From Gentiana macrophylla (Eukaryota > Streptophyta > Magnoliopsida > Gentianales > Gentianaceae): a stretch of DNA of 64,000 nt. The notes under the pieces were generated by a model. It saw nothing but the letters and a program-made list of their open reading frames with translations. It had not been told where the DNA came from and searched no databases. Positions within the stretch are counted from its first letter, which is position 1. Each line of letters starts with the position of its first letter. Shown here piece after piece: positions 4,626 to 41,265 of the stretch. The translations under genes and the position numbers were made by a program. The DNA lies in NCBI GenBank assembly GCA_026214975.1, contig CM047810.1, forward strand, positions 90,140,560 through 90,204,559, read 5' to 3'.

Positions 4626-4664
4626 ACTCCCCCACACTTAAACTTTTGTTCGTCCCGAACAAAA
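4626..4664 (-). promoter_or_regulatory. 3' polypurine tract and hairpin of element I
   Basis: Next to the 3' LTR the minus strand reads AAGTGTGGGGGAGT, the expected plus-strand primer. Upstream of it (4644-4664) is a 9-bp perfect stem, TTTTGTTCG / CGAACAAAA, closing a GGA loop. See the finding on PPT hairpins. Confidence 0.85.
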
Positions 4665-5670
4665 CAATCAAAACTAGCTCACTTTATATGTAATCCAAAT
4701 AGATTCCTAACTCACGTAACAAAATATACAACAACTATAGCAAGTAATACCAACATAGAGATAGATTCGGTGCATGTGTGACAAGCCCTTTTCAATCTCC
4801 ACAATCCTTTCAAACAAATATCTTTTCAAACAATTTAATGACTATCCTAGGTATAGCGAAGAATTGCTCCACACAAAGTCTTCCCGAGCACTCAGTAGGA
4901 TAATCCCTACAACATATCTTTCAGTTTATACTAGGTATAAGATTAACGATAACCAAGTCTTTAATTTAATTTTTATACGCAGATTAGAATGAGCTCGTAC
5001 CCGTCATAGTAGAATAGGATGTTTCATGATAACACCCTACCTTACTCAAATCATAAGGTAGCTTCTTCTAACTGTCGTGAGCTTTTAGTCATCATAGTGG
5101 TATAGGACATTTCGAGATAATACCCTACCTCACTCCAATCATCGACTAGCTTCCGACATACCATTTAATCATGTGATTACATAGAGATTTCTGGCTGGCA
5201 GTGGTAAAAATTATTTTTCTAGTAAACACAGACCACTGAGCATAACACCTCAAGTAAACAATTGATTACTATTTCAAAGACTTAAGTTACGTTTCACTTA
5301 TCACATTCAAACCGTCAGATATTCACAGTACACGTTCTGAACTTAGGTGTCACTTCACTGTTACTATTAAGAACAAATCTCTCTAAGATAAATCACTAAA
5401 ATAATGAAAAGATACAGTTCAAAAGTTTTTGCTTCAATATCAAAGGCTTTCGTGAGTGTGAAATGAATACTATCTCAAATCAGTAAAAACATGCTATAAT
5501 TATCTCTCAAAGTCACATAAAATCATCGTCAGGAAACTACAACTAGCAAGCATTTGTTCCAATTACATGCTCAAGATTTACAATTATCCAAGTGTAAAAT
5601 TTTTAAAATTTCACCATTTATCAAAGATCACAAATATTTACTCATACTGTCGAAAATAAAGCATGAATTG
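4665..5670 (-). other. Non-coding segment between the two PPTs of element I
   Basis: About 1 kb of AT-rich DNA without a convincing ORF. It contains two diverged copies (about 5003-5060 and 5090-5155) of a block with the core GACATTTCG(A/T)GATAATACCC. The same block occurs twice in the matching segment of element B (41876-42005). Short ORFs here have no recognisable product. Confidence 0.7.
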
Positions 5671-5711
5671 CACCCCCCCACACTTAATTCACATTATGTC
5701 CTCAGAATGTG
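5671..5711 (-). promoter_or_regulatory. Internal (second) polypurine tract of element I
   Basis: The minus strand reads AATTAAGTGTGGGGGGGTG, preceded at 5690-5711 by CACATT-c-TG AGGA CA-t-AATGTG, a hairpin with one mismatch and an AGGA loop. It copies the layout of the 3' PPT about 1.05 kb away. Use as a second plus-strand primer is inferred. Confidence 0.65.
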
Positions 5712-6268
5712 CAAATAAAAGAAAAGAGCACTTAGCTGGTTCCAACGATGGTTGTCGGGCTGTAGGTTGGCAGTGGTCAGGCCGGAGCATGAATAAACCG
5801 CTGCACTCGTATGAAGAAATGTACGACGACACTAAAAGTAAAAGCTTGCAAACCCGCTCAAAAGTATACGCAACACTCGACATATAACGAGAATAATCTC
5901 GGGTAGACGGGTATATGAGTAAACAGTATGCACACAAAAATAAGCAAATGAAGCAACCAACAAATAGGACAAGGATAACCAACACAAAACACTCAGGTTT
6001 TATTCCTAATAAAATAAAAGCTTAACTAAAAGAAATACTTAAAAGACTAGTCGCCTCCCAGAGCGCGCTTCTTTCATGTCATTAGCTTGACACAGATTTC
6101 AAAGTCAACCGGATCGGGCCACTTGGGTTTGAGGCTAGCCACTTCTCCGTTAGAATCGAATGACTAGAACGAAAATGGTTTTCGCCACAACAACAAGTCA
6201 AGTGCGTGAGAAGATCATGAAATTTTCTCTCAGCATAACACCGACTCTTTTCTTCTTGTTCTTGTTTC

Positions 6269-7568
6269 TCAGATTCGGTGAGGTATGCTAACAAAGCTCG
6301 GAGAGGGATGCAGGATAGGGGTAATAATGTCATCATCCACTCCAAAGAAGTCGGATGGAATCTCTTCACAAATAAACGACTCAACCGTGTCATTTCTCTT
6401 TTGAAAGTATAGTACTTCAGGCTTTTCCTTAGGTTGCCCAAAGTACTTCTTGAGTCTTTGACCATTGACCTTAAAAGGTTGATCACCATACCCGTTTAAC
6501 GTGATCGCTCCACTCGGATGGACATCAAGAATCTCAAAGGGCCAGACCATCTAGATTTAAGCTTACCCGCAAAAAGATGGAGCCTGGTGTTATAAAGCAA
6601 AGCCATATCACCCACTTTGAATTCTCGATCCTTGATCTTGGCATCGTGGAGTATCTTAGTTCTCTCCTTACTGATTCTTGCATTCTCATATGCTCTGAGT
6701 CTAAATTCATCGAGCTCGTTTAATTGCAATAATCTCTCTCCCCACAGAGTCGGCTATCGAAATTCAAGAATTTAATAGCCCAAGAAGCTCTGTGCTCAAG
6801 CTCGACCGGGAGATGGCAAGCTTTGCCATAGACCATTTGGAAGGGTGACGTGCCCATCGGGGTCTTAAACGCGTGCGATAAGCCCAAAGCGCGTCATCCA
6901 ACTTTAGACTCAGCTGGATCTATTTGAGTTCACGGTCTTTTCTAAAATCCTTTTAAGGCTCGGTTGCTTATCTCGACTTGGCCACTTGTTTGGGGATGAT
7001 ATGGTGTACCGATTTTATGTCTCACACCATATTTTTCAAGAACTTTATCAAAGCGCGCGTTGCAAAAATGAGTACCTTCATCACTAATGAGGGCTCCAGG
7101 ACGACTAAATCTGGTGAAGATATTCTTTGTAAGAATTTCTTCACAACTTTGTGATCATTAGTTGGGGTGGCTATTGCCTCCACCCACTTGGAGACGTAGT
7201 CTACACAGCAGACGAGAATGTATTTATTTCCACCACGACGATGGAAAGGGCCCATGAAATCAATTCCCCACACGTCGAAGACTTCGTGATTCCGAATGGG
7301 TCTAAGTGGCATTTCCATCCTATTACTCTCGCCTCCCAATTCTCTGGCACCTATCGCAACCTTTACAAAAGGCTTCGCATCCTTAAAAGAGTCGGCCAAG
7401 AGAATCCGGCTTGGAGGATTTTTGCAATCTGTCTTGGGTGCTCCGTGAGTGTCCTCTCGTGGGACCACTATGACATTGCTCGAGAATATCCCATTGCTCA
7501 TGTTCCGGAACACACCTTCTAAGCAACCCATCTTTACAAACCCCGAACAAATAAGGATCCTCCCACAC
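6269..7568 (-). pseudogene. int: Element I integrase, frameshifted
   Basis: Pieces in several minus-strand frames make one integrase. 7568-7383 holds the zinc-binding region, 7531-7022 the core ([19 protein letters not shown]), 6729-6496 the connector [19 protein letters not shown] and [10 protein letters not shown], and 6550-6269 an Athila-type C-terminus with FKVNGQRLKKYFG. Several frameshifts split it. Translation beyond 6269 toward 6082 does not resemble integrase. No accessory ORF follows before the internal PPT, unlike A, B and E. Confidence 0.88.
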
Positions 7569-7751
7569 GAGATATTTTAGGTCGAGAAAGAACTTCTTCC
7601 TCTCCCCGATACGTCATTTCCTCTAAATGTCCACTTGCTAAATAGTTGACGTAATCGGTGCATACCATGGCCTAACAAGATATCAAGCTTCATCAATTGC
7701 TCATCGGGAAGTCGATGCCTATTTCCTTGTGATTTATGCCACCCTCATTTA

Positions 7752-8189
7752 CTAGACGAGAAAGATGATCACCACAACATTATCACTACCCTTCTTATCT
7801 TTGATCTCAAGGTCAAACTCTTGCAAAATTAGAATCCATCCGAGTAACCTTGGTTTTGCATCCGCTTTGTCCATAAGGTAGCGTAGAGGGCTGCATGGTC
7901 GGTCCAAACGACAACTTGAGACCCTGAAGGTAACTCTAAACTTGTCAATAGCAAAAACGACGGCTAAGAATTCCTTCTCGATCGTAGTGTAATTGCATTG
8001 AGCCGGGTTCAAGGTGCGGCTCGCATAGTAAATGGGCCTCGAACTTTTATCAATTCTTTGACCTAAAGCTGCGCCATGCTGCGTAGTTAGAGGCATCGCA
8101 TAATAATTCAAAAGGCTTAGTCCAAAAAGTGCGATTAAGATAGGGCACTTATGAGCTTTTCCTTCAAGCAATTGAAAGCTTTCTTGCAT
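7752..8189 (-). pseudogene. pol: Element I RNase H, frameshifted
   Basis: Recognised by [40 protein letters not shown] and then [13 protein letters not shown], all standard landmarks of Ty3/gypsy RNase H after RT. The usual TDHSALKYL stretch near 7880 is degraded (RPCSPLRYL), which points to local frameshifts. It lies between RT and integrase as expected. Confidence 0.88.
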
Positions 8190-8971
8190 TTCTCATCAAA
8201 CAAGAACACAACATCATCGTTCGTAAGGTTGGACAGGGGCTTGGCGATGGTGGAAAAGTCCTTAATAAATCTGTCAGAAGCCAACATGACCAAGAAAGCC
8301 GCGTACCTCTTTGACAGTTTTGGTACGACATTTTCTCAATGGCTTCCACTTTGGCCTTATCAACTTGAATACCAGTGCCGGACACCTTGTGTCCCAGAAC
8401 GATCCCCTCATCAACTAGAAAATGACATTTCTCCCAGTTAAGCACTAAATTCTTTTCAACACAGCGTTGAAGTACCATATCTAGATTCGCCAAGATCTCA
8501 TCGGTTATCGCCATAGACTGAGAAGTCATCCATGAAGACTTCCATACATTTCTCCACAAGTCCATCAAAAATGGCAAGCATACACCTTTGAAAAGTCGCA
8601 GGTGCATTGCATAAGCCAAAGGGCATTCTGCGGAACGCAAAAGTGCCTGATGGACACGTAAACGTAGTCTTCTCCTGGTCATTAGGGTCGATGGCTATCT
8701 GGAAGTAACCAGAATATCCATCGAGGAAACAATAATACTTGTGACCACTCAGTCTTTCAATAAGCTGGTCAATGAAGGGTAAGGGGAAATGGTCTTTGGC
8801 GGTGACTTCATTCAATCTGCGATAGTCAATGCGCACTCTTATAGCCAATACAAGGCGTAAAGCTATCTCTTCCCCCTTTTCATTCTTTTCAACGGTGATA
8901 CCTCCCTTCTTTGGCACAACTTGGGTGGGGCTAACCCACTCACTATCGGCAATTGCATAGATGATTCCCAT
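8164..8971 (-). pseudogene. pol: Element I reverse transcriptase, frameshifted
   Basis: 8971-8498 contains SEWVSPTQVVPKKGG, the YCFLDGYSGYFQIAI region, MPFGLCNAPATFQRCM and catalytic FMDDFSVYG. 8682-8164 continues in another frame with NWEKCHFLVDEGIVLGHKV. FMDDFSVYG marks the Athila-type lineage rather than chromoviruses, which have FIDD as in element D. Confidence 0.92.
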
Positions 8972-10083
8972 GTCTAACCACTTTATAACTTCCTTCTTGA
9001 CAACCTCCGCAGATATGCGGATTCAACCTTCACGAGGTTGTCTTACTTTCTTAGCTCCTTCCTCCGCTCGGATTTTATGCATGCACACATCGGGCCGATT
9101 CCTCCGATATCACCCACTTGCCATCCGAACGCGAGGATATTCTTTTCAAGCACTTTTATCGCCAGTGCTTCTTGCTCGGGCTCGAGTTTTGAAGAGATGA
9201 TCAGGGTAACTTATCACCATCCTTAAGAAAAATGTACTTAAGGTGTTGAGGAAGCGGTTTAAGCTCCAAGTCGTAGGTGGTTGCTCAATACTAGATTTTA
9301 AAGGGCCACCTTTTTCCTTTTGGGCTTGAAGTGGTTGTGATGAGAACACCTCATCCTCCCGAGGCATAACCCTGTAAAGATCTTGGATAACATCATCTAT
9401 GGGATTCTTCACAAGACTGCTTCCTCCTTCCGATGCTTGATCATCTTTCTCAAATCTTCATCTTCTAGCTCCTCCGCTAGTCTGCTCCCAATCATCAACC
9501 TCCCAATGAGTAGCTTCTCTCCGTAAATCCACTTCATCCCAACTACCCATCGGGCTTCCTCTTCCAGGGTTAAAGTCATTCGATGCAGCTCTTTTAAATC
9601 ATCGCTCATTCTTTGGGAAATTCCATGTTTCTTTCTCATTGACAAGCTCGGTGTGAGCAAGTCGTGAAGAAGACTCGTCGAGACTACGGCCTGTAATGAA
9701 CTAGAAGATGGTCCAGAGTCACTTGATCTTCAATGTTTATAACTTCGAAAACACTATATCTCGTCACGCCTCTTGACTTCCTCGATTTGGCATCTTCTTC
9801 GCCCTCATAAATTGCTTCAATGAACGAGATTTCTTCACTCAAAGTGTTCTCTAGACTTTTCCCTTGTGTAAAGGTAACAGATGTATCATCAACTCTAAGT
9901 GTAATCGACCCTTACAGTGAAATCAATGAGGCGGCAGAGGTGTCTAAAAAGGTCCGGCCTAGAATTAGAGGCATCTCTCCATCCGGTGGGTAGTCTAAGA
10001 TAACCTGGTCGGTAGGAAAACCAAATGTTCAACATAGAGAAGAACATTAGTGACACAACCGGTGGCTGATCGGCTTGATCGGT

Positions 10084-10638
10084 CTACCATCCGAAGAGAA
10101 ATAGGCGCCTCCGCATTCTTTTGTCTAAACCGAGCTTTTTGCAGACGCTCAATGGCATCACATTTATAGAGGCCCCTGAGTCGCATAAGACATTCTGGAA
10201 CTTGTGGCCTTCAATCTCACAGGAGATTGAAGGTCTTCCGGGGTCACCTCGCTTAATAGCAACTTTTTGTGAGACCATGGAACATTCTTCTCTTAAAACT
10301 TCTTCTGCCATCCCTTGAAGCTTCTTCTTGCTTCCACAAACTTCTTTAAGATACTTAGAGCACTTGGGCATTTCAGCCAATACCTCAGCTAGGGGTATAC
10401 TCACTTTGGTGTCTCTAAGCATCCTCCTCACTCCGTCATATTGTCTGTCAAGACTGAGGGTATTCTCTTTCCTCTTTGGTGGATAAGGAAGGGCTTTATC
10501 ATTGTCAGGGGAACAGCCACCTGACTTTTTTATGGCCTCGTCTTCCTTATCCTTCCATCTCACAAACTTTTCCTCTCTCCTCTTTGTCGTGGGAACACCA
10601 CTGAATTTTCCTCGAATCGTAATCATCCTCATCCCCAA
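10084..10638 (-). pseudogene. pr: Element I gag-pol junction and aspartic protease
   Basis: The segment ends with GRPSISCEIEGHKF, then CDSGASINVMPLSVCKKLGL. DSGAS is the active-site motif of retrotransposon aspartic proteases. Downstream the frame is lost. 8975-10083 (minus strand) should hold the protease C-terminus and RT N-terminus but has only broken frames (pieces at 9146-9412 and 9409-9660). Confidence 0.85.
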
Positions 10639-10639
10639 G

Positions 10640-12178
10640 AACCGTCGCCATTAAGCTCCTCCTCACTTTGTTGGTTTCTTGAAGATAAGATTTGATTGCC
10701 CCTCCGAACTTATTAAGTCGGGGGAGGGTCGCTGCGCTTCCGACACCTTTCCGGGTCCCGCCGCTTACCACTTCTCAAGGTAACTTCATTCAACTCTTGG
10801 TCTCCATACTCCCATTGAGGTGTGATGGCAAAGTGCAAACATTGATATCTACTTTTGATTTCTCTCGGTATAACTTGGAAGTTTACCGTGGGGTCGCTTG
10901 CTTTGTCGGTTCCGCCATCCCGCCCGACTGTCTCTCTATTGCCTTGACACTAGTGGACAAGGTCTTCACCATATCTACTAGCTCATCAAACTTATGTTGA
11001 GGGACACATGAGGTGGTATGATTTTGATGTTGGCTTTGATTCCAACCACCTTGAGGTCTTTGGGAGTTGGGATTATGAGCTTGATTAACCACCCGTGAGG
11101 TGGTCTTTGATAACCTGGTTGAAAGAAGGGTTAGAATTGGATGGGCCAGGTGGTGCATTGGGACGTTGAAATCCGAGAATAATTCCGGTTCCGATTGGAG
11201 TTTCGGAAGGTCCGGTTGAAATTCACTTCCTCGCAATTTCATCTCCCGCTGCATTCCCGTGTAGTTCACATCCGTCGCCCTTGTTGTCTTTGCATTTGTA
11301 AAGTGGCTAGTCGCTTGCTAATTGCTTCCATTTGAGCAACTAACACCTTAGTCTCGTAATTGCTTGCAGCAGATTCTTTCTTATTAACATTGGTTTTCCT
11401 TGGAGTTGACCACATGTTATTCTTGGCTATGGTTTGGCTACCTCAGTAGCAAGATCATCACCTCCCCTGTAGGAAGGATCCATGGGCGAGTTGAATCAAG
11501 GAAATCTCTATTGGGTTGAGTAACACCGATAGAATAATTCTAGTAGCTCATGTCCATTTGTATCCATGGTTGGGGCACTTCCTCATCTACTGATTTAATC
11601 TCTCCCATGCTTTCCCACACTCTCACCATCAAGTTGTTCAAATGTGGCTATCTCCTTTTCATGTCCATGATTGTCCCCTGGTGAGACAAACTTGAGCAAA
11701 GGCTCTTTTGACATCATTCCAAGAGCGGAGAGAATGATGGGCTGTAGATTTAAACCAACGGTTCGCTTCACCCTTGAGAGCAAACGGGAAGAGTTTTAAC
11801 TTGACAATCTCAGAATCAACACCAGGATAGTGGCCTGCTTCACAGATTTGAACGAAAGTGGACAAGAAGTCATGAGGATCCTCGTCAGCAGTGCCATGAA
11901 AGGAACTATTCTCGACCCATCCTACCACTCCATTTTTCGGATCGAAATTAACTTGCCCCATTTACGAGAGGCGAATGGGTCTATGCCCTTCCAGGAAGTC
12001 TTGGTCAAGATAGGGAGCATAGGGGTCTTGGTTTAACTGGTTTAGCTGGTTTTGACGGAATTGTTGAAACTGATTATTTATGCCAGCTTGTTGATTCTGT
12101 TGTTGCTGTATTGCCTGCATCTGTTGAAGGATCGATTCATCGGGCTCGAGGGTCTGCATTCGGGACTTCGTTAGCCAT
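10640..12178 (-). pseudogene. gag: Element I gag, frameshifted
   Basis: A start at 12178 gives MANEVPNADPRAR, then a frameshift leads into a Gln/Asn-rich N-terminus (about 12159-11962). The capsid-like domain is at 11961-11659: HGTADEDPHDFLSTFVQICE, KLKLFPFALKGEANRWF and SWNDVKRAF, typical of the plant retrotransposon gag family. 11269-10883 is Gln/Asn-rich with KFDELVDMVKTLSTS. I could not see an intact zinc knuckle. Confidence 0.85.
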
Positions 12179-12610
12179 GATGTCTGGATTGGGAAAGAGC
12201 TTTCTCCTGATAATAGATCGCTCAGGCTCGGGATTAAAGATAAGAGGTCCCTTCTTGCTCCTGGTTTGCATAAATCAGAAGAGCAAAATGGAAAGAAATC
12301 AACCTTAGGGTTGATGAGAACGAAATGTAGAGGAAATTAGAGGGTTTAGAAAGAGAGAAGAGAAAAGAAGTGTCAATTGAAGAGAGTGAATCGGCGTTCG
12401 AGATGAGTGAACGCTGCTCGTTGAGGAAATTCTCGAAGTGGACGCTCATTCAGATCATCGAACCGGCGCTCGTAAGATGATTGGGAGAAACGGGCGTTTA
12501 GAGGTCGGACGGCGTTTGGTAGTTCAGACGCTGTCTCGATCGCCTTAAACGATGCAGAGAAGAAGATTTTTAGAATGCACGGGCGCTCGAAAGGATGGAC
12601 GCCCGTTTAG
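12179..12610 (-). promoter_or_regulatory. Element I leader with GC-rich motif block
   Basis: In AT-rich leader DNA between PBS and gag, 12380-12605 is rich in CG-containing words. It includes ACGGGCGTTTAG-like and GGACGCCCGTTTAG-like copies (near 12493 and 12597). The same words occur in the GC block of this element's LTRs and, as an array, in the LTRs of chromovirus D. Function unknown. Confidence 0.55.
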
Positions 12611-13042
12611 AAACTCAAAACGAAACATATAAAGAAAAGAATAGCAGAAAGAAAATAAAACCTAAAATAGTAATAATTAAGGCAACAAATTTATACGATC
12701 TAAAATCTAAGGCAAATCTAAGCTAAATCTAAGGCTGCTAAAATCTAAGTTCTAAAGAAAAATCTAAGGCTAAATGTAAAATATGAAAATTAAAATTAAC
12801 AGGTGAATACGAAAAATAGAAAAATAAAAAGAAGAAAAACTTATGAAAGATCTAAAATCTAAACTATAAAAATTATGATAAAATAAAGGTCTAATAAAAA
12901 TCTATGGCAAAGTCTAAAGTCATAAAAAAAATAACATAAAAAAAAACTAAAAATAAAAATGTAACTATTAGATTATCACCTAAAAGAGATTAGCATCGAT
13001 ACAAAAAATTGCACCTAGAAGAATCCGACAACCGTTACCGAC
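12611..13042 (-). other. Element I untranslated leader, AT-rich
   Basis: Low-complexity A-rich sequence with short repeats of the type TCTAAGGCTAAAT. No ORF or structured RNA was recognised. It lies between the PBS and the GC-rich leader block. Confidence 0.6.
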
Positions 13043-13060
13043 TCCCCGGCAACGGCGCCA
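13043..13060 (-). promoter_or_regulatory. Primer-binding site of element I (tRNA-Asp)
   Basis: The + strand reads TCCCCGGCAACGGCGCCA, the 3' end of plant nuclear tRNA-Asp including CCA. The minus strand is therefore an 18-base perfect PBS, 6 bases from the LTR end. tRNA-Asp priming is usual for Athila-type elements. Confidence 0.95.
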
Positions 13061-13066
13061 AAAACT

Positions 13067-14833
13067 TGTTCGGTAAAAACGAGGTTTACAATTTATAACC
13101 GAAACACCCCAAGTATAAGGATCGTAGTATAGGATGTTAACGGGTCGTCCTAAGGGAGTGGAATGTTTATCGGATCAAAGTGCAATAATTAAATCGATTA
13201 TGTCACGAATTATTAACTAAACTAGGGTTTATGCTAAAAATAGAGCTAATGAACAGTAACTACGATGAACAGTAAAAACGATGATGAACAGTAACTTGGA
13301 TGAATAGTAAATTTGCAGAAAATTAACAATTAACAACTAGAATTTAAAACAACTAACTTAGCAATCAACGATTTATACTAATGATTCGATTTATCAAGTA
13401 ATTAAAACAACGGCAAGGCAACGGGAATCCACCGATCAACAAACCCAACTCCAACTAGACGGCAAGTAAAAGATATGATTTTTAGTAATGATCTACCACT
13501 TAATTCGATTAAATTTCTCTAAACGAATTCTAGGGTTCCGCTCTCTTTTCAAGTAAAACAAAACAACATGAAAAACACGATCACGAGATTATTTCTAATA
13601 CTTTACTCAATTAACTATAAACGATCTCTCGAATTATAATTAATCGCATCAATTAAAAAGATCACAACTTGAACAATATTTTCATATAAATTCAAAGCAT
13701 AAAAGATGGTTTCATCGATCTCTCGATTCAAATAAAACATAAACGATAAATAACAAATTCTAATTGACGAAAAACGATAACTTTACTCACTAAAAGTACG
13801 GCTAAAAATCTCTCTAGTTGGTGTTGATGTTGATCGGTTTCATCCGTTGTCCCACCGCGATGTGCTTAGCCAACAATCATGTTGATGAACATGATCATTG
13901 GAATGGAGAGATTCATCCCTAATTAGGCTTTGGTAATTGCGGCTGCTACTCTAAATTGCGTGTGGAATTATTGATAATAAATTAGGGTTGCAATTGCCGC
14001 TGTATTTATAAGGAAATAAGGCGGCTACCCTCAAAGTCGGTGGTGAACGGGCGTTTGCCATGATGGACGCCCGTCCAGGAGCTTCTGGACGCTACATGGA
14101 CGTTCGTTTGAGGTCAAGTCAAGGCTCAGATCAAATTGTCGCTTTGTGAACGCTAGTTCAGCGACTCAAACTTCTAAAATTCATATCTTGAGTTGTAGAC
14201 CTCCAAAAATTATGATCCGAATGTCATAATTAAGCTCTCGGAAAACTCTACAACTTTCATTAAGGACTCTTCTTCAGAAAACACCTTTTTGATTAGCCCG
14301 TCGTATTACGAGTATATTACGACATTTTCCAGTAGTTTCAGCAACAGCATCCAAACTTGTAACGCTCATATCTCGGGCCTCATAAGTCGGAATGAAGTGA
14401 TTCAAAATCCTGTAGAATCCTCTCTTCAAGCCCTACAAATCTTCTCTTGAGGTCGAGAGTCAAATCAGTGTATATCATATCAAGAACTGCATCGGAAGTT
14501 CGGCTGCTTGAAAGCTTCATTCCAAGCTTTATCTCCATCTTCCTTCCATTTCACTTCTCTTCCATGCAAAACCTCATCATTTAATCCTCTTGCATGCCAA
14601 AATATGTATCTATAACATAGGAAAATATACCAAAGCGTAACACAATCCCAAAATAACATAAAATCACAATTTAAGCACATAAATCGTTACATTTTGCAAT
14701 TTATTATCTTTATCTTTAAACATCATTTGCTCAGTTTATCCTTTTGGCGAGTGATTTTCTATAAAAATCACTAAAACACGGGAGATAATGTTACGAAATA
14801 ACTCGATAAAAACCATAAAATTAGTCGTAAACA
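13067..14833 (-). repeat. 5' LTR of element I
   Basis: 1767 bp, TG...CA, with the TSD copy GGTAC at 14834-14838. It retains the 147-bp segment (14664-14810) missing from the other LTR. Most remaining differences from the other copy are small indels or changes at CTG/CAG and CG sites. Predicted TATA about 14000-14010, GC block about 14013-14110. Confidence 0.95.
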
Positions 14834-14913
14834 GGTACTATCTTTTTAATTCTCTTTTTAATATGCAATTTAATTAGTTTCGTCTTTTACCGGATAGACG
14901 TTAAAGAACTGGA

Positions 14914-15336: not shown

Positions 15337-15704
15337 GTTTTATGTTTTTCAAAAAAAAAAAAGAAGAATCAAGTAATTACTAACGATTCGAGTCGATAAG
15401 AGTTCGGTTCGATTCGTTAGCTTTATAACCTAAAAAATCACAATTCTATCATCTTCATCTTCTTCATTTTTTTCAAGAGCAAAAGCCGCCCCACCCCTTT
15501 TCACCTCTTCAAAAATTTCATCACTTTTCACCATTTTTTCTATCACAAACTACTTAATTAATCATCTTATCTTCCATTACACTACATAAAATCATCACCA
15601 TTGCATAAAAGGATAGATTTTGCAAGCAAAGCTCCTCTTTTCAACACATTCCGGCGACCACCATACATTCCGGCAACTATCTACTTTTTCTAGCTTTATA
15701 CGGT

Positions 15705-15756
<52 letters not shown>

Positions 15757-17779: not shown

Positions 17780-17852
17780 AAACAGATGCATCATTCCTCA
17801 ATTGCTAATTCACTGAATAAAGCTTCTTGTTTTCTTATAAAGACCGTATAAA

Positions 17853-18739: not shown

Positions 18740-20307
18740 TGTTTTATGACGAAGAAGTAAGTTGAGTTAAGTAAGAGTAAGTTAGTTTAAGAAAGAATGA
18801 ATTAACTTAGTTTTAGCTTTTTCTAGTTTAAAGTAATGTTTTAGTAGTTAACTTGTACTTTTTTAATTTTGTAAAATATTTGTGTGTTGTTTTACTATGT
18901 TTTGCCTTTATGCTATATTATATAAACGCTCAAATCATGTATGACACGTAAAATATTTAATCGTTATAAAATTCATTTTATTTTCTAAACCAAATGTTTA
19001 TTACCCATTAGACATCGGGACGATGCCAATTTAAGTAAGTGGGGGAGTAGAGATTGGTTAGTAAATAAATTGAATTTAATATATCAAATGCTTAAACACT
19101 TAGTTTAATTATTCTTAAGGAAATAAACGAAATAATATATAATTATTATAATATGGATAGTATATTTGGATAGAATAATTTTTTTTTAACTAAGTAAAGT
19201 AATCTCGATATATTATTTCTATATTATTTATATCTATTTTAGATTTTTATCAAGATTTTAAGTATGTATACCTAGATAAATAGTATGAAATATTATTTTT
19301 TTGAAATTAGACAAAAGTTACTTATAATTATAATAAAATTTTAGAATGATTTTCTTTTCAAGACAAGTATGAATTTGGAATCGGATTAGGAATGATGAGA
19401 TTTTTGGCATTACTTTGACTAACTATGGCCAAATAAGCCTACCCGAACGTAATTTTCAATTTTTGTCCCCACCTCAGCCTTGTAGAGTGATCAAGACCTC
19501 ACTCGAAATTAGTCATTATGATTAACTAGATATAACCGACCCTTAACTTAAAATGGTCTACATTTCCTTGAAATCCCGCAAGTTTAGTATGTGCTTATGG
19601 ATAGCGGTGACGACATCGAAATTCAATAGTGGTATATGCTGAGATTGGAATAAATATTATTCGGAAGGCAATCTTTTATCAAATATTGTTATTCTCTAGA
19701 AAAAGAAAAAGTTGGAATAGTTAGGTGCGTTGATGTATTCGTTCTCACCTCATGACGCTTGAAAGATAGTCGATTCTGGCAATGAGTTCGGATATGTTAG
19801 TATTCTAAAAATAAAAAATAAAAAAAAACAAGGGAAAAATGAAAAAATATGGTTATTAGAATTAAATTTTGAAAACAGTGTCAGGATGTTACTGATCAAG
19901 ATATCTTTGATCAAAAGTTGAAGGTGTAAGTACGTACGGCTTGCTTCAATTTCTTTTGATTTTCCTTTGTTATCCTTTCGATTTGCCAAACACCCTGAGC
20001 CTGAACGTTATAAGCCATTTTGCCAACTACTTGACTTAGTCATTGATTCCGAAATTTCATATAGTGGCGATTACAAAGTTATTCTAAGTATTTTATTTTA
20101 TATTTATTAAGTAATTCATGTAGAATTTCATTTAGATAATATTTTATAACTAATTTATTAAGTTATACACATTTTATATCTTTTTAATAATCTTAGATAG
20201 ATAAAATTAATATAATTATAATATTGACAGCATACGTTACTAAGTTAGAAATTTAGTCTAGAAGAACTATATTATTGGCATTATAACATTTTATATATTA
20301 TCGCTTA
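18740..20307 (+). other. 3' non-coding region of element A
   Basis: AT-rich, no credible ORF. It is recognisably homologous to 33304-34812 (E) and 41266-42902 (B), for example in the stretch with TCTACATTTCCTTG near 19557. Contains the internal PPT at 19013-19052. Confidence 0.75.
19013..19052 (+). promoter_or_regulatory. Internal polypurine tract and hairpin of element A
   Basis: CATCG GGA CGATG (19013-19025) forms a 5-bp stem with a GGA loop, followed by AAGTAAGTGGGGGAGTAGAG. It lies about 1.3 kb upstream of the 3' PPT and is matched in B and E. Confidence 0.65.
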
Positions 20308-20346
20308 TTTTGCTCGAGGACGATCAAAAGCTAAGTGGGGAGTAGT
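20308..20346 (+). promoter_or_regulatory. 3' polypurine tract and hairpin of element A
   Basis: TTTTG-c-TCG AGGA CGA-t-CAAAA (20308-20329) is a hairpin with one C/T mismatch. AAGTGGGGAGTAGT follows and ends where the 3' LTR begins. Confidence 0.85.
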
Positions 20347-26520: not shown

Positions 26521-26529
26521 ACTTACCCA

Positions 26530-30529: not shown

Positions 30530-30616
30530 ATCTCTCACTTGCACGAAAGCCAAGTGGATTAATTGTTTTAGTGCACACCCTATATCTATATTACAACAAT
30601 ACAACTCCCACTTGCT
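30530..30616 (-). promoter_or_regulatory. 3' untranslated end and polypurine tract of copia F
   Basis: Between the F stop codon and its 3' LTR. The minus strand ends with GTGCAAGTGAGAGAT next to the LTR start TGTTAGG. It has none of the GGA-loop hairpins seen at the gypsy PPTs. Confidence 0.65.
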
Positions 30617-31756: not shown

Positions 31757-31959
31757 TGGCTTAAACTGTATGTCCAATCTTACCGGCAGTGTACCGGATC
31801 AAATTGTAGTTTAGTCTGGTGAATCAAGGTCGTATCCCTCAGGGAAATGAAAATATGATTCAAAATGTGGTTAAACACCAATTAGCTGTTATTATCTCAA
31901 TCTAAGTCGCAATCCTCACCATATAGGGTTATGATATTAATGCAATAACTTAGATATAT

Positions 31960-32014
<55 letters not shown>

Positions 32015-33264
32015 AATATAATAAATACTAATATAGATAGTTATATAATAAGAAGAACTAACTAAGACAATATTATTGAACCATGATCTCTTTTAGTTTA
32101 ATGGATGTGATTGAACTTCCTGTTTTAAGGTGTAATTGATTATGTGAAACGGTATATTCCTCAGCTAACAAATTCCCTCATACGAGTGCACAAATTTGTT
32201 CTATGCCTCCTCCTTGGTAAAACCTCGATTAAACCTAATGATTTGACATGATAATCTCTCGAGTATAAATATTCTGTCCCTGGATAAGAAAGAGGGTTCC
32301 GTTTGTCAGACGGCCAATTTTACCTTCCAGTCTTTTCTACTTTTCTCATATCCTAACGTCTCAGTCGAGTTCATGATTAGGTTATGTCTCTGTCCATACT
32401 GGTTAATTACGTCAATATGGGCTGTCAATTTGTTCAAGTAGAAAAAGATTCATCATATTCAATTTTTAATCAAATTTTAACATAGTCATCATCCATTTCT
32501 CTAAAAGATCAACATAGCTCAATTACATGTCTTGGCTAGTTGTATAATTAGCCTATAATCATTATTAATATTAATATAAAGATACTTATATAAACAACAA
32601 ACATAATAACATTAGAATATTACCGATTACAGTTGTTGAAGTGGGCTTTTTCCTCTGAATGTAACAACAACTATGAATTCAACAATCTTCGATAATTACT
32701 CTAAATATTACAACGATACTAATACTACTTTTTATGGCAGAATGCCTACTGAAATAATATTTACAGAGAGTAGATAAGATAATATATATATAGATAGAGA
32801 TATATATATTGGTACGGTTTTTTTCCTTCATAAATGAGGGCTATTTATAGGCAGAGTATTCGTCGGCGGCGACGCTGAGATGATCAGCGTCGCGCGGATT
32901 AATCGAATTTGAGTACTCCTTGTCAGACGCATGTGAAGTAACATGATTTAATCATCACCTAATCCGGCATGAACCGGCTCCTTCCGGCCTGCGCCGGATT
33001 TGACAAATATCAGCCACTTGATCAGATTTTTATATTTTTCGATTCCGATTCTTCTACTTTGTATCACATAATACCTGCATAATTCAAAAACAACAAAACC
33101 ACAGGTAAATCTGATAACAAAATTTATAAATTATATTACGATATTTATTTGTAACTATTTAGATTTTTTATAAGTTATTAATACTTTTTAAGATATTTAG
33201 ATAAAATTAATAATAATATGTATAAAATGTTTATAAATTTTAGTTATAAAGTTAACATATATCA
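31757..33264 (-). repeat. 3' LTR of element E
   Basis: 1508 bp, TGGCTTAAAC to ACATATATCA. It shares with A and B the 15-mer CCGGCAGTGTACCGG (31783-31797), an AT repeat (31952-32012), TATA plus GC block (32841-33000) and GTACCAATATATAT near 32800. The right edge is fixed by the PPT. Confidence 0.85.
32841..33000 (-). promoter_or_regulatory. Predicted LTR promoter of element E
   Basis: On the minus strand GC-rich DNA is followed by CTATAAATAG (32841-32850). The block includes a GACGCTGA / TCAGCGTC inverted repeat (about 32868-32889) and four CCGG words at 32961-33000. The four-CCGG pattern recurs at 61142-61181 inside the same element. Confidence 0.65.
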
Positions 33265-33303
33265 ACTACTCCCCACTTAGCTTTTGATCGTCATCGAGCA
33301 AAA
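33265..33303 (-). promoter_or_regulatory. 3' polypurine tract and hairpin of element E
   Basis: Minus strand: TTTTG-c-TCG ATGA CGA-t-CAAAA (33282-33303), then AAGTGGGGAGTAGT at the LTR edge. The loop differs from A and B by one base while the stem is conserved. Confidence 0.85.
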
Positions 33304-34812
33304 TAAGCGATAATTTATAAAATTACAATGAAAATAATATAATTGTTTAGATTAGGTTATTAATTTAGTAAAGTACTCTGTTAATATTATAATCATATTA
33401 TTTTTGTCTTTCTTAAAAAAATAAAAAGTGTGTATAGCTTATAAAATTAATTATCAAACATTATTTAGGTGAAATTTTCCATGCTTTACTTAATAAATAT
33501 AAAATATTTTTAGAAATACTTCCAATCGCCACTAATGAATATCCGGAATCGAAAACTAGGTCAAGTAGTTGGCAAAGTGGCTTGTAATGTTCAGGCTCAG
33601 GGTGTTGGCTAATCAAAAGGATAAAAAGGGAAAATCAAAAGAGAAAGAGCAAGTCGTACGTACTTATACCTTCAATCTTTTGATCACAAATATCTTGATC
33701 GGTAACATCCTGATACTGTTTAATAAGCTTGCACCATTGCCCTCAATAACTTTTATTTCACATATATACAAATGGTTCCTAGTTTATTGGTTGGAACTTT
33801 TTTTTTTATTTTTTTTTATTTTTTTTAAACAACAAACATAATAGATAATGACCTCAAATTGATAATGTACCAATCTCAACTCGTGCCATATAATGTGCCG
33901 ATTCTTAGTTCTGATGTCGTCGCTGCTATTCATAAGTACATATTAAACTTGCGAGATGCCAAGGGAATGTAGACCAAACTAGGCTAAGGGTCGGTTATAA
34001 TGCGGTTTAAATACGATGGCTAGTTCGAGTGGGGTCTCGCCACTCTTACAAGGCTGAGATGGGGACAAAAATGGAAATTATGTTTGGGTAGGCCATTTGG
34101 CTATAGTTAAGTCAAAGTTATGCCAAAAATTGTCATCCCTAATCCGATTCCAGACTCATAATTTTGTCTTGAAAGAAAAATTTTCTAAAACATTAATTTA
34201 TAAATATAAGTATACTTGTCTAATTCCATAAAAAAAAAACTTATTTGATAAAAAATTCTTAGTTATGCATACTTAGAATCTTATTAAGATAGGCATATAT
34301 AATATAATTATAATATATCGAGTTTACTCTACTTAATTAGAAACTCATTCTTCCCAAAAATATTACCTTTATTGTAATAATTATATATTATCATGTTTAT
34401 TTTCTAAAGGATAATTAAACTAAGTGTTAAGTGTTTGATATAATAATTTCATTTTATTTATTAACCTAACTCTACTCCCTACTGACGAACTGTCATCGTC
34501 CCGATGATAAGTGAGTGAAAAAGTTGGGTAGAAAATAAAAGGAATTTTTAATTAAGGTAATAACGAGTTTGTCTATGAATTAGTCGTTTAGAAAGGAAAA
34601 TAACACAGAATATCATAACTTTTTAGAAAAAACAAACATTAATATTACGCAAGATATGAAGACATAGTTAAACAAAGTTACGACTCAAAGTAAATTTTTA
34701 GACTAAAACAACTTAAAAGAAACTTAAAAACTTAAAAGTTAAAACATCTTATTGCATCAACTAAACCAAGCAACACTATCTCCTGCCATTGCACACAGAT
34801 TAAATTACTCCT
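33304..34812 (-). other. 3' non-coding region of element E
   Basis: AT-rich and homologous to the same region of A and B. Holds an internal PPT at 34470-34507, where the minus strand has TCATCG GGA CGATGA (34493-34507), then GTAGGGAGTAGAG. A 90-codon ORF at 33569 on the + strand is antisense low-complexity sequence. Confidence 0.7.
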
Positions 34813-35160
34813 CTATTCTTCTGCTGTAGATGAACCACGTGGTACATATACTGGGAGCAAACCTAGATGAGGTTGACGAGAAGGAAAAATCTCATCCGAT
34901 GCAGATTCTGGAACTCCAGCAAAACGGACACAGATCCTAGAGATCAACCACGCATAAGGCATCGGTTGACGAAAATTTCGTCTACCGAGTGCAAAGTTGA
35001 TTGCCGTCTTGTGGATTAGGACTCCCCAGTCAATAATAGCTCCAATCGTAATAGCATAAAGCAGCAACATCTCATCATCAGAAACCTTTGAAAAATCCAG
35101 AGTTGGAAAAACTCGTGAATTTATAAAATGTTTCCAGGTTCGAAGATGAGGAAGCAGGGC
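34813..35160 (-). pseudogene. C-terminal half of accessory ORF2 of element E
   Basis: Open from the D insertion to its stop: ALLPHLRTWKHFINSRVFP, LLLYAITIGAIIDWGVLIH, MPYAWLISRICVRF and a Gly-Leu-Leu-Pro-Val tail, aligned with ORF2 of A and B. The N-terminal half is absent. Past the D target site (61056-61110) only a short homologous stretch remains before a deletion junction. Confidence 0.85.
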
Positions 35161-35165
35161 TGAAG
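35161..35165. repeat. Target-site duplication of element D (left copy)
   Basis: TGAAG at 35161-35165, repeated at 61051-61055 just after the right LTR. Defines the D insertion in ORF2 of element E. Confidence 0.93.
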
Positions 35166-37317
35166 TGTAACGCCCCGTTCCCGGACACCGAGTCCTTATC
35201 CGGAAAAGGAACGTTCGGCATGTATAAAATAAAAATAAATTCACTTTATACGTAAGCCTCTACTACGTCGTATCAGAAATAAGCAAACGGAAGCAAAAGA
35301 TTCGGGTATAAAAAAAAATTCCAATATCCAAGAATAGAAATGAAATCTAAAGAGGGAAATGTAATTTATTACATCCAAGGAAAATACGAAATCCAAACGT
35401 AATGTACGATATTCTCAAAAGGAACGTAACGATACTACAAGTCTCAAAAGACCAAAAGTCTAAACCGTCTAATAAATGAATAGCCAAAAAAAATAATGAA
35501 AAGTCTTCAATGAGGCGTCTTCAAACGTCATCATCGAACTCCTCCTCGTAAACGTTATCTACCTGTTCGTCTTCTCATCCCCAAACACATAGAAAAACAT
35601 GCATTTGAGGTAAGTACAACGTACTTAATAAGAAAGAGAAGCTATGACAACAATTATAATTTATAAGGAAAAGATATTTAAAAGTTTCGTTGTTTAAGTT
35701 TGACCAACTCAATCTAGGGTTCATCTCATGTCCATCAACATGAATTGACTAAACATTTCTACTTAACTTATCTATGTTACAACCGCACTCAAGGGCACTA
35801 CGCCTGATGTATATCCACCAGGAGATATCGATTGCAACATATTAGTGGATCACACCAATATCCACGGAGGCTAGACTAGGTAGGCTCCGATAGTACGCAC
35901 ATCTCAGCGGAGTCCCTCCTTACTTAGGGTTTTTTTGACCTACGGAGTTCTTCCACCTTCAGAGGTAGGCATACATCGCGATATAGACTGGTGCCTGTCC
36001 AAGATAGACATGTTGTTTAATCTTTTACTAGTCAAGTACGTATTTATTAGGATGGTTAACTAGCCACCTAAGTGTTTTCAATTAATCTCTCTCACATTAA
36101 CCACTCTCTCCCTAGACCACTAGACATTAACAATACCTAGCAATTACACAGACAGTGATGAATACTAATTCATCAAAGCACAAGCCTATCATGCTCTTCC
36201 GACGGATCCAAACTTCAACTCCCTTTAAGAGTACATTCGGTGTTTTAACTGAATGAATCAGAAGCTCAATTCAGGCTTGCTCAAGTTTATACAGTGTTAA
36301 CATATCACGTTTAAAGGTGTAGAAATGATAAAACGTACTTATAAGGCGGAACAACAACCAAACGCCCGTTTAAAGACATGGACGCCCGTCTGGAACCTAC
36401 TGGACGCCCGTCCAAGACTGGACGCCCTCCATTTTCCCCAGACGCTTGTCCACCCTAAGACTGCTACAACCTGAATGTAAAATAACACCTCAGACGCCCG
36501 TCCAGAGAAACCAGACGCCCGTCCACTAGACCCCAAACGCCCGTCTGCCAAAAACAGCTACATCATGAATAAAAAATCTCACCTCAGACGCCCGTCTGCC
36601 TATTGCAAACGCCCGTCTGAGCCTCTAGGGTCTCGGACGCCCGTCTGACTAATCCAGACGCCCGTCCGCCTGGGTTTTTCCCAAAACGCTAAAACCGTCA
36701 AAACTCGATTTCTGAACCAATTCTAACCTAATTAACATCATTTTCAGCACAGTAAAACGTAGTGAACATATCTAATCATCCCAAGAATACCTATGATCCT
36801 TGATCAATGAAAAACACATCTTTCTAGCATCTACACATCTTAAAACATAATCTAAACCTTACGAATCGTAACCGAAATCATAGGAAGCGTTTCTTTCCTA
36901 ATTGTAGCCACAAACCAGGTTCAAACAGCCTTGAAAGTCTATAGCTCTTCCCACAAAACTGATATCCACACGATGTGCTCCTCACAACGGTTCTAATCTC
37001 TGATCTGAAAACGGTCAAGCTTTGCTTCAGTTAATTGAAAAACACCTCTAGCCTTTTTTTTCTTCTCAAAGCCGCAGAGAAGGAGATGAAAACTGAAATT
37101 TCGATTTGTGTTTAGGTTATGGGATTAAAGTGTGTTAATTTTCCTTAAATACCAATTCCCAAAATTCAGAATAATCCTTTAATTATATACACATATACTC
37201 GAAAATTGTGTATAATTAATTAATAAAATACTTAACTCCAATAAAAGAAAAGAAATAATAATATTTCATTTTCGTAAAATGACACGTCTGCCCTTTCCCG
37301 AAAATCAGAATATTACA
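35166..37317 (-). repeat. 3' LTR of element D
   Basis: 2152 bp, TGTAACGCCCC to GAATATTACA. Contains the GC motif array at 36360-36665, followed in minus reading by TTATAAGTA (about 36335-36345). Differences from the 5' LTR cluster at CTG/CAG and in the array. Confidence 0.93.
36360..36665 (-). repeat. Array of GACGCCCGTC-type motifs in D LTR
   Basis: Ten exact ACGCCCGT copies plus two variants, irregularly spaced by 15-45 bases, within AT-rich LTR. The other LTR has a degraded array at 60088-60392. The array ends about 15 bases upstream of a TATA-like TTATAAGTA on the minus strand, so it may be promoter-proximal. The ORF across it is not a gene. Confidence 0.8.
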
Positions 37318-37354
37318 TTCCTCCCCCCTTAAAAGGAGTTTCGTCCTCGAAACT
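37318..37354 (-). promoter_or_regulatory. 3' polypurine tract and hairpin of element D
   Basis: Minus strand: AGTTTCG AGGA CGAAACT (37337-37354), a 7-bp perfect stem overlapping the pol stop codon, then AAGGGGGGAGGAA up to the LTR. The loop is the same AGGA as in the Athila-type elements, but the outer stem sequence differs. Confidence 0.88.
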
Positions 37355-39062
37355 AGAACATACCTGGTAAATCCACGAACTCTTGGAATTCACTGATCAT
37401 ATCATCTTCAACTTCCCAAGTTGCCTCCTCGGGTGAATGATTACTCCACTAAACCAAAACCAAGGGAATCATCCGCCTCTTGATCATCTTTTCCTTCCGG
37501 TCCAAAATCTTGATCGGTCTCTCATCATAAGCAAGATTGTCTTGTAGGATTTCCGGATCAATTGTAGTTTCGACATCATTCCTTGTCAGACACTTCTTCA
37601 ACATCGAAACGTGGAACACACTATGGACCCTTGACATCGATTCCGGTAACTTAAGCTTGTAAGCTAGCGGTCCAATTCTTTCCAGAATTTCAAAAGGTCC
37701 AACATACCTTGGACTTAGCTTTCCCTTTTGTCCAAAGCGTTTCACTCCCTTCATCGGTGAAGCTCGTAGATACACTCTATCACCGACTTCAAACTCAAGC
37801 GGTCTTCTCCTAACGTCTGCCCAACTTTTCTGCCTGTCTTGAGCTGCCTTCAGATTCTTCTTAACCAACTGAACCCTTTCCTTAGCTTGTTCAACCATTT
37901 CCGGCCCTGTAATCTATCTTTCCCCGACTTCATCCCAAAACAACGGTGTTCTACATCTTCTTCCATACAACGCTTCAAACGGTGGCATGCCTATACTTGC
38001 ATGATAACTATTATTGTAGGCAAACTCTGCTACCGGTAGATAATCATCCCATGATCCACCTACTTCCAATACACAAGCTCTTAACATGTCCTCGAGTGTT
38101 TGGATGGTCCTCTCAGACTGTCCATCTGTCTGAGGATGAAAGGCCGTACTTAAGTCCAACTTGGTTCCAAAAGCTTCTTGCAAACTCTTCCAAAACCGAC
38201 TGACAAATCGACTATCTCGATCCGAGACTATAGAGATAGGAACCCCATGTAACTTCACTATATTATCCAAGTATAGTGTCGTCATCTTCTTCAAAGGCAT
38301 ATCAACCTTATACGGTAAGAAATGGGCAGATTTGGTCAATCTATCCACAATTACCCAAATCGCATCATGACCGCCTCTCGTCTTAGGTAACCCGGTGATG
38401 AAGTCCATCGTAATCTTATCCCACTTCCATTCAGGGATATCCAAGGGCTTGAGCATTCCTCCTGGTCTTCTATGCTCTGCCTTCACTTTCTGACAAATGT
38501 CACACTCTGCCACGAACTTGGCTATTTCTACCTTCATCGAAGGCCACCAAAACTTCTCCTTCAAGTCTCGGTACAACTTGGTAGCACCTGGATGAACTGC
38601 AAAAGCAATCCTATGTGCCTCTTCCATGACCCTCTGTCTCAAGTTGCCAACATTAGGCACACACAAACGATCCTGGTACCAAAGGTTTCCATTCTTATCC
38701 AAGACGTAACCCACCGTAGGCTTTTCTCTAGCAACTCGCTTCAAATCAACCAAGGCTGGGTCGTCATCTTGCTTTTCCCGAATGTCATCCATCAACTCAG
38801 ATCTTGCTAACAACGGCGCCACGAACTGTCGTTCCTCAATCTGATCAAACCTGCTGATTTCCAGTCCATCTAACTTTTCTGCCACATCTTCGACGCTTGA
38901 AACTGCAGACAAAGGTTTCCTGCTTAAAGCATCTGCCACTACATTGGCTTTGCCTGGATGGTACTGAATATCCAAATCATAGTCCTTCACGAACTCTAGC
39001 CACCTTTTCTGTCTCATGTTCAGATTCTCTTGTGTGAAGAAATACTTTAAACTCTTGTGGTC
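37353..39062 (-). pseudogene. int: Element D integrase and chromodomain, with RNase H end
   Basis: 39017-37914 covers the end of RNase H ([18 protein letters not shown]), the zinc-binding region ([34 protein letters not shown]), and the core ([40 protein letters not shown]). A stop near 37914 separates it from 37898-37449, with the connector and GPFEILERIGPLAYKLKLP. The chromodomain follows but begins V-stop-WSNHSPEEATWEVEDD: CAG has become TAG at about 37449. The frame then runs to 37353. Chromodomains bind modified histones and can steer integration. Confidence 0.93.
39058..39062. repeat. Target-site duplication of element B (left copy)
   Basis: TGGTC at 39058-39062 and again at 55496-55500. 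Marks insertion of B within the RNase H coding region of D. Confidence 0.95.
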
Positions 39063-41225
39063 TGACGGACCTTTTCTAGGCTATACAGATCCTAACCGGC
39101 AGTGTACCGGGTCAAATTGTGGTGCTAGTATGATGAGTCAGGTGTCGAATCCTCAGGGAACTTGGTAATTTCTTTTACGTGTGGTTAAACACCAAAGAGT
39201 CATATTATTAACTCGATCTAAATCGCAATTTTATCACACAGATCACTACTATTCTAGTTAACATAAAATAAATACGTAATTTAAAAGTTATTCTAATATA
39301 ATATATATAGATATATAAATATATATAGATGTACATAAATTGCAAAATATATATATAGATATAAATATATAGGTACCAATATATTAGACAAATAATTTTA
39401 GAGAACTGGCCAAAACTTATATAATTGGTTTATACGATCTTTTCGATTAATTGAAATGTGTTCGATCTCTCCTTTTATTTTAGGTTCAATTGAGTAAGTG
39501 AAACGGTGCACTCCTGAGGTGAACAATTCCTTCTCACACGAGCGTATGAAATTGTCATATGTCCATTGTCATCAGTCCAAGGTCCACAACTGTTACGGTA
39601 AACTAATTAATCTGAACAGGTCCCGAGTACAAATCTACCTTTAGATAAAAAGGAGTCATTCCGTTCGTCAAACGGTCAATTTTATTTTAAAGGCTCCGGT
39701 TGTCAAAGCCGGACGATTCAACTTTCGGTTTAAGTTTCAATTAAAGCGATGATTTAACATTATTACGATCTCGAGTACAAATTATAATAAAATTCATTTC
39801 TCCCAAAACAAATTTACCCCCGGGTAGGAAATCGGATTCCGTTATCACGTTGTTCACACGGCCAATTTTACCCTCCGGTTTTTCTATCTTTTATTTCATA
39901 TCCTGACTACGAGGCGTCAATTCATAATTAGATTATGAATTCCTCAGATCTATTAAATATGTCAATACGAATACGATCAAAATAGAAAAAGATTCAATTA
40001 ACTCAATTTTAGTCATTTTAACTTAACAACATTTCTTTAACGAAAAGATCGAAATAAAACCGATTACATAGTTTTGGCCAGTATTATATTTAGCCTAAAA
40101 ACATTATAACAATGAAAAATACAAAAACAAACATAAATACTTAAGAAAAGTTACCCGAATACGGCAGTTGATTCAGAAATCGTATCTTCCGGACATTACA
40201 ACTTCTTTAGCAAAACCGACTTCCGAGATTTTCTCGAGCATTACAACGATACTAAAACTACATTATTACGGCGTAAGGCCTTATTTACAACTACTACTAA
40301 AAATTAAAAAGAAAAGAAAAGGAAAGAAAGAGAGGAGATATGTATATATATATGAGATGTATATATATATTTGGTACATCGACTCTGTTTCTGCTGCTGC
40401 TCTTTATATAGGCAAATTGGCAAAGGCCGGACCGGTCCGGTATTAGGCCGGCTCGGTCCGGACTAATGATGATCCCCACTAACTTGATCAGTCCAGCATG
40501 TGCGGTGGAGATATTATTTTTTATATATAATTATTAAACTTCTAAAATTCATATCTCGAGTTCTGGACTTCCAAAAATTGCAAACGAAATGCCAAAATTA
40601 AGATCTCGAGAAACTCTACAACTTTCATGAAGGACTCTTCTCCAGATAACGCTTTTTTGATGACCTCGTGTTCCTCCGAAGCTTTTACGGGATTTTTTCT
40701 TAATCCAAGTCGATTAGCCACTTGATCCTTTGTTTAAGTTCTAGACCTCCAATCTTCATAATTTAAATTGCATTGGAACACTCTCGGAAAAATCTACAAC
40801 TTTCGTTAAGAACACTTTTCGAAAATATCATTTTGATGAGCCATTCGTTTGTCGAAGATATTTCTCTATTATTACTTATCCAGATTGGTTGGCCACTTAT
40901 CCACTTAAGCTATTCAATTGACCATTTAAACTTGTGGCACTCTCTAAATCATTCCAGAGATATGATTAAACTTCAATATATTGATTCTCGGGGTCTTGGT
41001 TTATAAATCTGCAATAAAATACCACAAATACCCACGTAAATCTGACACGACACTCCGATTTACTAAAATCGGAACAAAATTACAACTTTTTATTATTATT
41101 ATTACTAAATACTCTAAATTATAAAGACTAACATTTTATACCATAATTTCATATATTTTATATAGAATTCGTTGATAAAACATAATAATATAACGTAATT
41201 TTAATCATATAAAAATAATACATCA
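39063..41225 (-). repeat. 3' LTR of element B
   Basis: 2163 bp, TGACGGACC to ATACATCA on the + strand. Contains CCGGCAGTGTACCGG (39096-39110), an imperfect internal duplication (about 39618-39715 and 39768-39885), GGTACCAATATAT (39371-39383), TATA and GC palindrome (40401-40461), and a twice-occurring ACTCTACAACTTTC / AATCTACAACTTTC module (about 40550-40850). ORFs inside are not genes. Confidence 0.95.
40401..40461 (-). promoter_or_regulatory. Predicted LTR promoter of element B
   Basis: On the minus strand the 14-bp perfect palindrome CCGGACCGGTCCGG (40427-40440), with a second half-block GGCCGGCTCGGTCCGG, lies just upstream of CTATATAAAGA (40401-40411). Then come a GCAGCAGCAG run and GTACCAAATATATA. 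The other LTR has the same at 54674-54735. Confidence 0.7.
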
Positions 41226-41265
41226 AATTACTCCCCACTTAGCTTTTGATCGTCCTCGAGCAAAA
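41226..41265 (-). promoter_or_regulatory. 3' polypurine tract and hairpin of element B
   Basis: Minus strand TTTTG-c-TCG AGGA CGA-t-CAAAA (41244-41265), then AAGTGGGGAGTAATT next to the LTR. Confidence 0.87.

Follow-up and report, generated by a model that had tools for sequence, protein, structure and literature searches.

A purine-loop hairpin upstream of polypurine tracts in plant Ty3/gypsy retrotransposons, a possible cis-acting component of the plus-strand primer module

We analysed a stretch of 64,000 nucleotides (nt) of Gentiana macrophylla DNA (contig CM047810.1 of assembly GCA_026214975.1; hereafter the window), from a plant genome of 1.79 Gb, in which nested Ty3/gypsy retrotransposons carry a small hairpin with a loop of three or four bases, usually GGA or AGGA, a short distance upstream of their polypurine tracts (PPTs). 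The same hairpin is present in most of 81 elements surveyed, at a nearly fixed distance from the 3′ long terminal repeat (LTR), and its stem pairs change on both sides while the loop stays largely the same. These comparisons suggest that the plus-strand primer module of many plant Ty3/gypsy elements may include the hairpin as a conserved cis-acting component, at least in the Athila group and in chromoviruses like element D of the window, a proposal that we judge to be evenly balanced.

By our own reading, in which both the nesting and the clade names rest on protein domains and LTR matches, the Athila-type element I appears to lie inside A, and the Athila-type B inside the chromovirus D, itself apparently inside the Athila-type E; LTR matches identified both LTRs for I, D and B. 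The sequence-only reading of the window had claimed nine hairpins, and all nine were found at the positions in Table 1 and pair as it described. Each belongs to a module of hairpin, short spacer and PPT, with two modules in each Athila-type element (I, A, E and B), one adjoining the 3′ LTR and the other 1.0–1.4 kb upstream of it. At the 3′ LTR copies the purine-rich tract abuts an LTR starting with TG, and at the internal copies no LTR follows the tract. In D the pol-frame TAG is followed by the PPT and then the LTR, and another stop lies earlier in the frame. Seven of the nine hairpin cores are CG-(A)GGA-CG, the others being TG-AGGA-CA in I2 and the differently looped E1. Because both sites are homologous among A, E and B (A1, E2 and B2 at one; A2, E1 and B1, with identical arms including one C/T mismatch, at the other), the nine hairpins represent five types and not nine independent cases.

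Table 1. Hairpins and associated repeats in the window (strand given where assigned)
Feature	Position	Strand	Description
I spacer and PPT	4626..4643	-	AAGTGTGGGGGAGT, then LTR start TG
I1 hairpin	4644..4664	-	TTTTGTTCG-GGA-CGAACAAAA; at 3′ LTR of Athila-type I; stem 18 nt from LTR start
I2 hairpin	5690..5711	-	CACATTCTG-AGGA-CATAATGTG, one mismatch; internal; PPT-like AAGTGTGGGGGGG
A1 hairpin	19013..19025	+	CATCG-GGA-CGATG; internal; with AAGTGGGGGAG
A2 hairpin	20308..20329	+	TTTTGCTCG-AGGA-CGATCAAAA, one C/T mismatch; at 3′ LTR of A
E1 hairpin	33282..33303	-	Arms as in A2, loop ATGA; at 3′ LTR of E
E2 hairpin	34493..34507	-	TCATCG-GGA-CGATGA; internal; PPT degenerate (GTAGGGAG)
D hairpin	37337..37354	-	AGTTTCG-AGGA-CGAAACT; chromovirus; first bases overlap pol-frame TAG; 19 nt to LTR start
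B1 hairpin	41244..41265	-	Identical to A2; at 3′ LTR of B
B2 hairpin	42672..42684	-	CATCG-GGA-CGATG; internal; with AAGTGGGGAG
A inverted repeat arms	19121-19338/20093-20310		Between the two PPT modules
E inverted repeat arms	34256-34442/33258-33444		Between the two PPT modules
B inverted repeat arms	42459-42606/41318-41470		Between the two PPT modules
I repeated block	4990-5065, 5078-5153		Around TATTATCNCGAAATGTCCTAT
B repeated block	41881-41909, 41951-41998		Around TATTATCNCGAAATGTCCTAT

The survey of 81 elements comprised the five in the window, eight loci from contaminated assemblies described below (L071, L072, L073, L075, L076, L078, L090 and L102), 48 chromovirus loci of the same plant genome, and 20 I-type elements taken from the listed matches of a PPT+TG pattern, all on one contig and chosen regardless of the hairpin. 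Fifty chromovirus loci of the genome were examined (30, then 20 of the 39 remaining rows). L120 and L150, where the LTR start was not located, were left out, as were L074, whose hairpin is the same as that of L073, and the later finds L086, L103 and L188; distant loci lacking the hairpin are not among the 81, L090 and L102 were included after their hairpin had been seen, and the CRM, Reina and Tat-type lineages lie outside the survey. In fetched loci the LTR start was taken as the TG following the PPT, and the 60 nt preceding the 3′ LTR were searched for a stem, counted from 6 net pairs upwards. This inspection found a stem in 71 of the 81 elements, where shuffles lead one to expect 3.5; with the window elements, L090 and L102 removed, 64 of 74 have it, 59 with a purine loop and 58 of these at 24–27 nt.

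The loop is all purine in 65 of the 71 (AGGA in 43, GGA in 17, AGA in two, and GGGA, AGGG and AGAG in one each), and the remaining six are E1, L137 and four loci (L128, L148, L149 and L151) with a rival upstream hairpin scoring equally or better. Among the 65 purine-loop elements the loop lies 24–27 nt from the LTR in 64, and the base of the stem 17–20 nt from it in 63; they hold only 21 distinct arm pairs, so many rows are copies of a few families. Eight of the ten misses (L116, L117, L119, L123, L135, L141, L169 and L174) have a copy of the hairpin that differs by one or two substitutions, and the other two, L122 and L142, a more altered one. The hairpin or a substituted copy is visible in all 20 I-type elements, and 18 reach the threshold.

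Hairpins of this general kind do arise by chance. The window has 12 with five or more net Watson-Crick pairs around a GGA, AGGA or GGGA loop, of which eight are those already named (E1 falls outside this loop definition) and four have no linked PPT; 30 shuffled windows held a mean of 4.5, a background that favours chance pairing in AT-rich sequence. The shuffle comparison called for by the sequence-only reading speaks differently once the tract is included, as a hairpin followed by a PPT-like G-run occurred at a mean of 0.03 per shuffled window, and chance is not the explanation. A strict G-run pattern flagged six of the eight in the window, the I1 tract AAGTGTGGGGGAG not fitting it and the E2 tract being degenerate. 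Genome-wide, the I-type PPT+TG pattern has 6947 matches, and its reversed control three.

The claim that stems covary around a constant loop holds in a wider set as to the stems. In an alignment of 22 family-level rows, chosen for a visible hairpin and excluding B1, B2, E1, L074 and further copies from the same genome, each of the seven stem pairs varies on both of its sides, with 48 cells of double change and 94.8% of cells paired, compared with 61.5% in shuffles. The covariation score is 0.815 against 0.180, a value reached by none of 500 shuffles and lost when the register is slid, and these controls leave relatedness in. MAFFT placed the gaps of 3-nt loops outside the loop, which was therefore set to N. 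Further pair types number 17, compared with 14.5 in shuffles, which is not unusual, since 68 of 500 shuffles reach that number. When 23 rows were permuted, none of 5000 trials reached the observed paired cells or double changes and 353 reached the pair types; with 13 chromovirus rows, 25 of 5000 reached the pair types. The loop is purine and usually ends in GGA, and is near-constant only, as E1 with its ATGA illustrates.

None of the 146 paired cells in the 22 rows is a G-U pair and none shows a one-sided change; G-U pairs made by substitution do occur in four copies from the same genome outside those rows (L117, L123, L135 and L141). Folding with DNA parameters gave the hairpin in three of three stretches (z from -4.74 to -2.25). 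These two observations, the DNA folds and the lack of G-U pairs, together with the 48 double changes, leave room for a structure acting at the DNA level or in both strands, either a dyad that a protein recognises or hairpins in each strand. A symmetric dyad needs neither the asymmetry of the loop nor its mostly purine composition in element orientation, and we consider a DNA-level or both-strand structure unlikely.

The translation products of chromoviruses offer a separate view of what is selected. A chromodomain end could be recognised in 78 of 159 proteins, and in 42 of them it was followed by a tail of 6 residues or more; by pattern these tails divide into xEDE/xGDE (21, at least 14 of them from Gossypium), RGR-type (six, of which P0124, with FRDEN, probably belongs to the first frame, xEDE/xGDE, instead), SRT/SGT-type (three) and none of these (12). 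In the last 40 residues of a further 20 proteins (15 from Paspalum), NL(E/G/R)D(E/K) was found in 14, EARGRAS in two and neither in four. A codon-feasibility calculation was made without a null and is not counted as proof. Chromovirus polyproteins thus read the hairpin in three frames, which argues that the nucleic acid and not the peptide is selected, and a conserved C-terminal peptide was rejected as its cause. Set beside the covariation and the 71 of 81 elements, these frames make it hardly credible that the hairpin is either chance pairing or a by-product of such a peptide.

Searches beyond the plant's own genome brought further relatives to light. Nineteen plant chromovirus protein fragments, used as queries against contigs of bacterial assemblies, matched at least 10 contigs, and the loci L071–L078 and L086, though filed as bacterial, encode plant-like Ty3/gypsy pol and are apparently plant contamination. 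The hairpin stands directly upstream of the PPT in L071, L072, L073, L074, L075, L076 and L078, one hairpin being common to L073 and L074; the contig of L077 stops before the PPT region, and a repeated search of the same assemblies added L086, with GATTTTG-GGGA-CAAAATC. The eight of these loci that extend to a PPT and have a match of at least 43% to P0063, a plant chromovirus protein (L071–L076, L078 and L086), all have the hairpin, with several different stems. It is also present in L090, L102 and L103 (the last being the same place as L106), which are about as distant as gypsy loci that lack it. A single bin titled Trichormus holds L078, L090, L102 and L103 together with L093, L096, L098, L099, L101, L105, L107 and L110; since a Trichormus symbiont inhabits the fern Azolla, these loci may be fern elements, though they may have other sources. 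Four distant loci in this bin (L093, L096, L098 and L099) have a PPT-like GGGAGGATAATGTCA in common, and this group has no such hairpin. An Athila-type relative in a contaminated assembly, L188, has an integrase 56% identical, and the only GGA-loop hairpin detected in its 4449 bases lies directly before a PPT-like tract. The hairpin is also carried by relatives presumed to come from other plants. Among viral contigs, a pattern of hairpin core plus PPT had 70 matches, none of them similar by tblastn to the five window pol/env-like pieces tried, and three of the 70, by chance, had a stem of 6 or more; integrase searches of viral contigs found no relatives, and a DNA-pattern search of genome contigs gave no match.

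Modules are duplicated in more than one way. A chromovirus family of 15 loci (L112–L119, L121, L123, L124, L129, L130, L136 and L139) has two tandem modules of hairpin and PPT about 57 nt apart, the second hairpin being substituted in some, and the extra PPTs both of this family and of the window Athila elements have a hairpin of their own. Between the two modules of A, E and B lies a long inverted repeat with arms 69–71% alike, and the linkers of I and B contain a repeated block with 94% identity between the two elements over 49 bp (three window matches, compared with 0.01 expected), with no other I/B linker match at E 1e-4. The spacer between hairpin and PPT has T-runs in some chromoviruses (CCTTTT in D, CTTTT in L071) and is poorer in T in the Athila elements; in D (37318-37354), L072 and L076 it is C/T-rich and able to pair with the PPT as a second small stem.

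The nearly fixed distance to U3 and the duplication of the hairpin together with PPTs tie it to plus-strand priming. PPT recognition, packaging and RNA 3′ processing had all been offered as functions by the sequence-only reading; the 24–27 nt geometry and the duplication favour the first, and the other two are disfavoured. A packaging or dimerisation signal bound by Gag or nucleocapsid, with the unpaired GGA loop as contact and the PPT beside it by coincidence, would suit the purine loop that 65 of the 71 elements with a hairpin have on the sense strand, and retroviral nucleocapsid binds exposed G in loops; neither the distance to the LTR nor hairpins at extra PPTs would be expected of it, and we think it rather improbable. 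An RNA element serving another step, such as translation termination, RNA 3′ processing or export, could draw on the overlap of the D hairpin with the pol-frame stop codon, and is made very unlikely by the internal Athila copies more than 1 kb from the LTR and by some chromovirus relatives in which the pol frame continues through the hairpin.

As part of the plus-strand primer module, the structure would determine which stretch is cut to give the primer during minus-strand synthesis. It might hold the reverse transcriptase just beyond the PPT and so place RNase H near the PPT/U3 junction; the distance from polymerase to RNase H in the reverse transcriptase of human immunodeficiency virus type 1 (HIV-1) is 17–18 bp, like the 17–20 nt hairpin spacing. 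It might instead confine the RNA/DNA hybrid to a delimited stretch of about 17–20 bp, and the purine loop may contact Gag nucleocapsid or reverse transcriptase. In a more specific form, a palindrome in both strands would let a hairpin form both in the RNA and in the newly made minus strand, cutting the hybrid to about 17–20 bp ending at U3, a structural primer ruler common to plant chromoviruses and Athila; G-U pairs would then be absent because the palindrome must pair on both strands. We regard this form as distinctly doubtful.

Several findings weigh against a role of the hairpin in priming. Distant gypsy loci lack such a hairpin, both those scanned (L079, L080, L093, L096, L098, L099, L107 and L110) and two inspected by eye (L101 and L105), and six of them (L093, L096, L098, L099, L107 and L110) nevertheless have a PPT-like tract; another PPT-like tract in L188 is likewise without one. 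The hairpin is therefore not a universal feature, and a PPT can function in its absence. RNA folding of seven stretches placed it in the minimum-energy fold of six, A2 preferring another structure, with energies not clearly below those of shuffles (z from -2.03 to +0.22). Simple pausing leaves the conserved loop unexplained, and in the yeast Ty3 reverse transcriptase, according to passages of PMC5371799, the polymerase and RNase H sites are about 13 bp apart, not 17–20 nt.

Comparable arrangements are known from other elements. In Sirevirus and other Ty1/copia elements, as parts of Bousios et al. 2010 (PMC2829016) describe, an inverted repeat at the PPT/3′ LTR junction accompanies multiple PPTs and was proposed to aid formation of the correct PPT primer. 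The resemblance lies in the precise placing of an inverted repeat at the PPT and in the multiple PPTs. The copia repeat has its left arm bordering the PPT, its right arm in the 3′ LTR and the PPT in its loop, with upstream PPTs lacking the repeat; in the Ty3/gypsy hairpin both arms are upstream of the PPT, the right arm being nearest to it across a short spacer, the loop is 3–4 nt, and internal PPTs bear the hairpin. PPT-containing stem-loops are reported for Sire and HIV in portions of Benachenhou et al. 2013 (PMC3601003), whose authors urge a systematic search in other LTR elements; there the PPT is exposed in the loop, and here it lies outside the hairpin. The U-box or T-box of retroviruses and Ty1, in the account taken from PMC10085805, is also a cis signal, lying just ahead of the PPT and important for plus-strand priming, and consists of T-rich sequence with no hairpin. 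Extra PPTs have been described in Athila4/Calypso (Wright and Voytas 2002, as cited in sections of PMC2829016) and in the beet chromovirus Bongo3, where the extra one is PPTa (sections of PMC3605345); as with those of the window Athila elements and the L112/L113 family, their place is the linker or the stop codon of pol. The main text of PMC3605345 contains none of the words hairpin, stem-loop, inverted repeat or palindrome. The extra PPTs and the differently built copia PPT inverted repeat are thus already published. For the upstream hairpin in Ty3/gypsy elements no description was found in searches limited to open-licence PubMed Central (PMC) papers and their listings, a result that does not show it to be unpublished.

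To our knowledge it is not settled what guides the reverse transcriptase of a plant Ty3/gypsy element to its PPT. The plant elements that carry the hairpin are very abundant, and at its almost constant distance it is a cis signal open to direct test; it would also help in annotation to locate 3′ LTR boundaries and internal PPTs.

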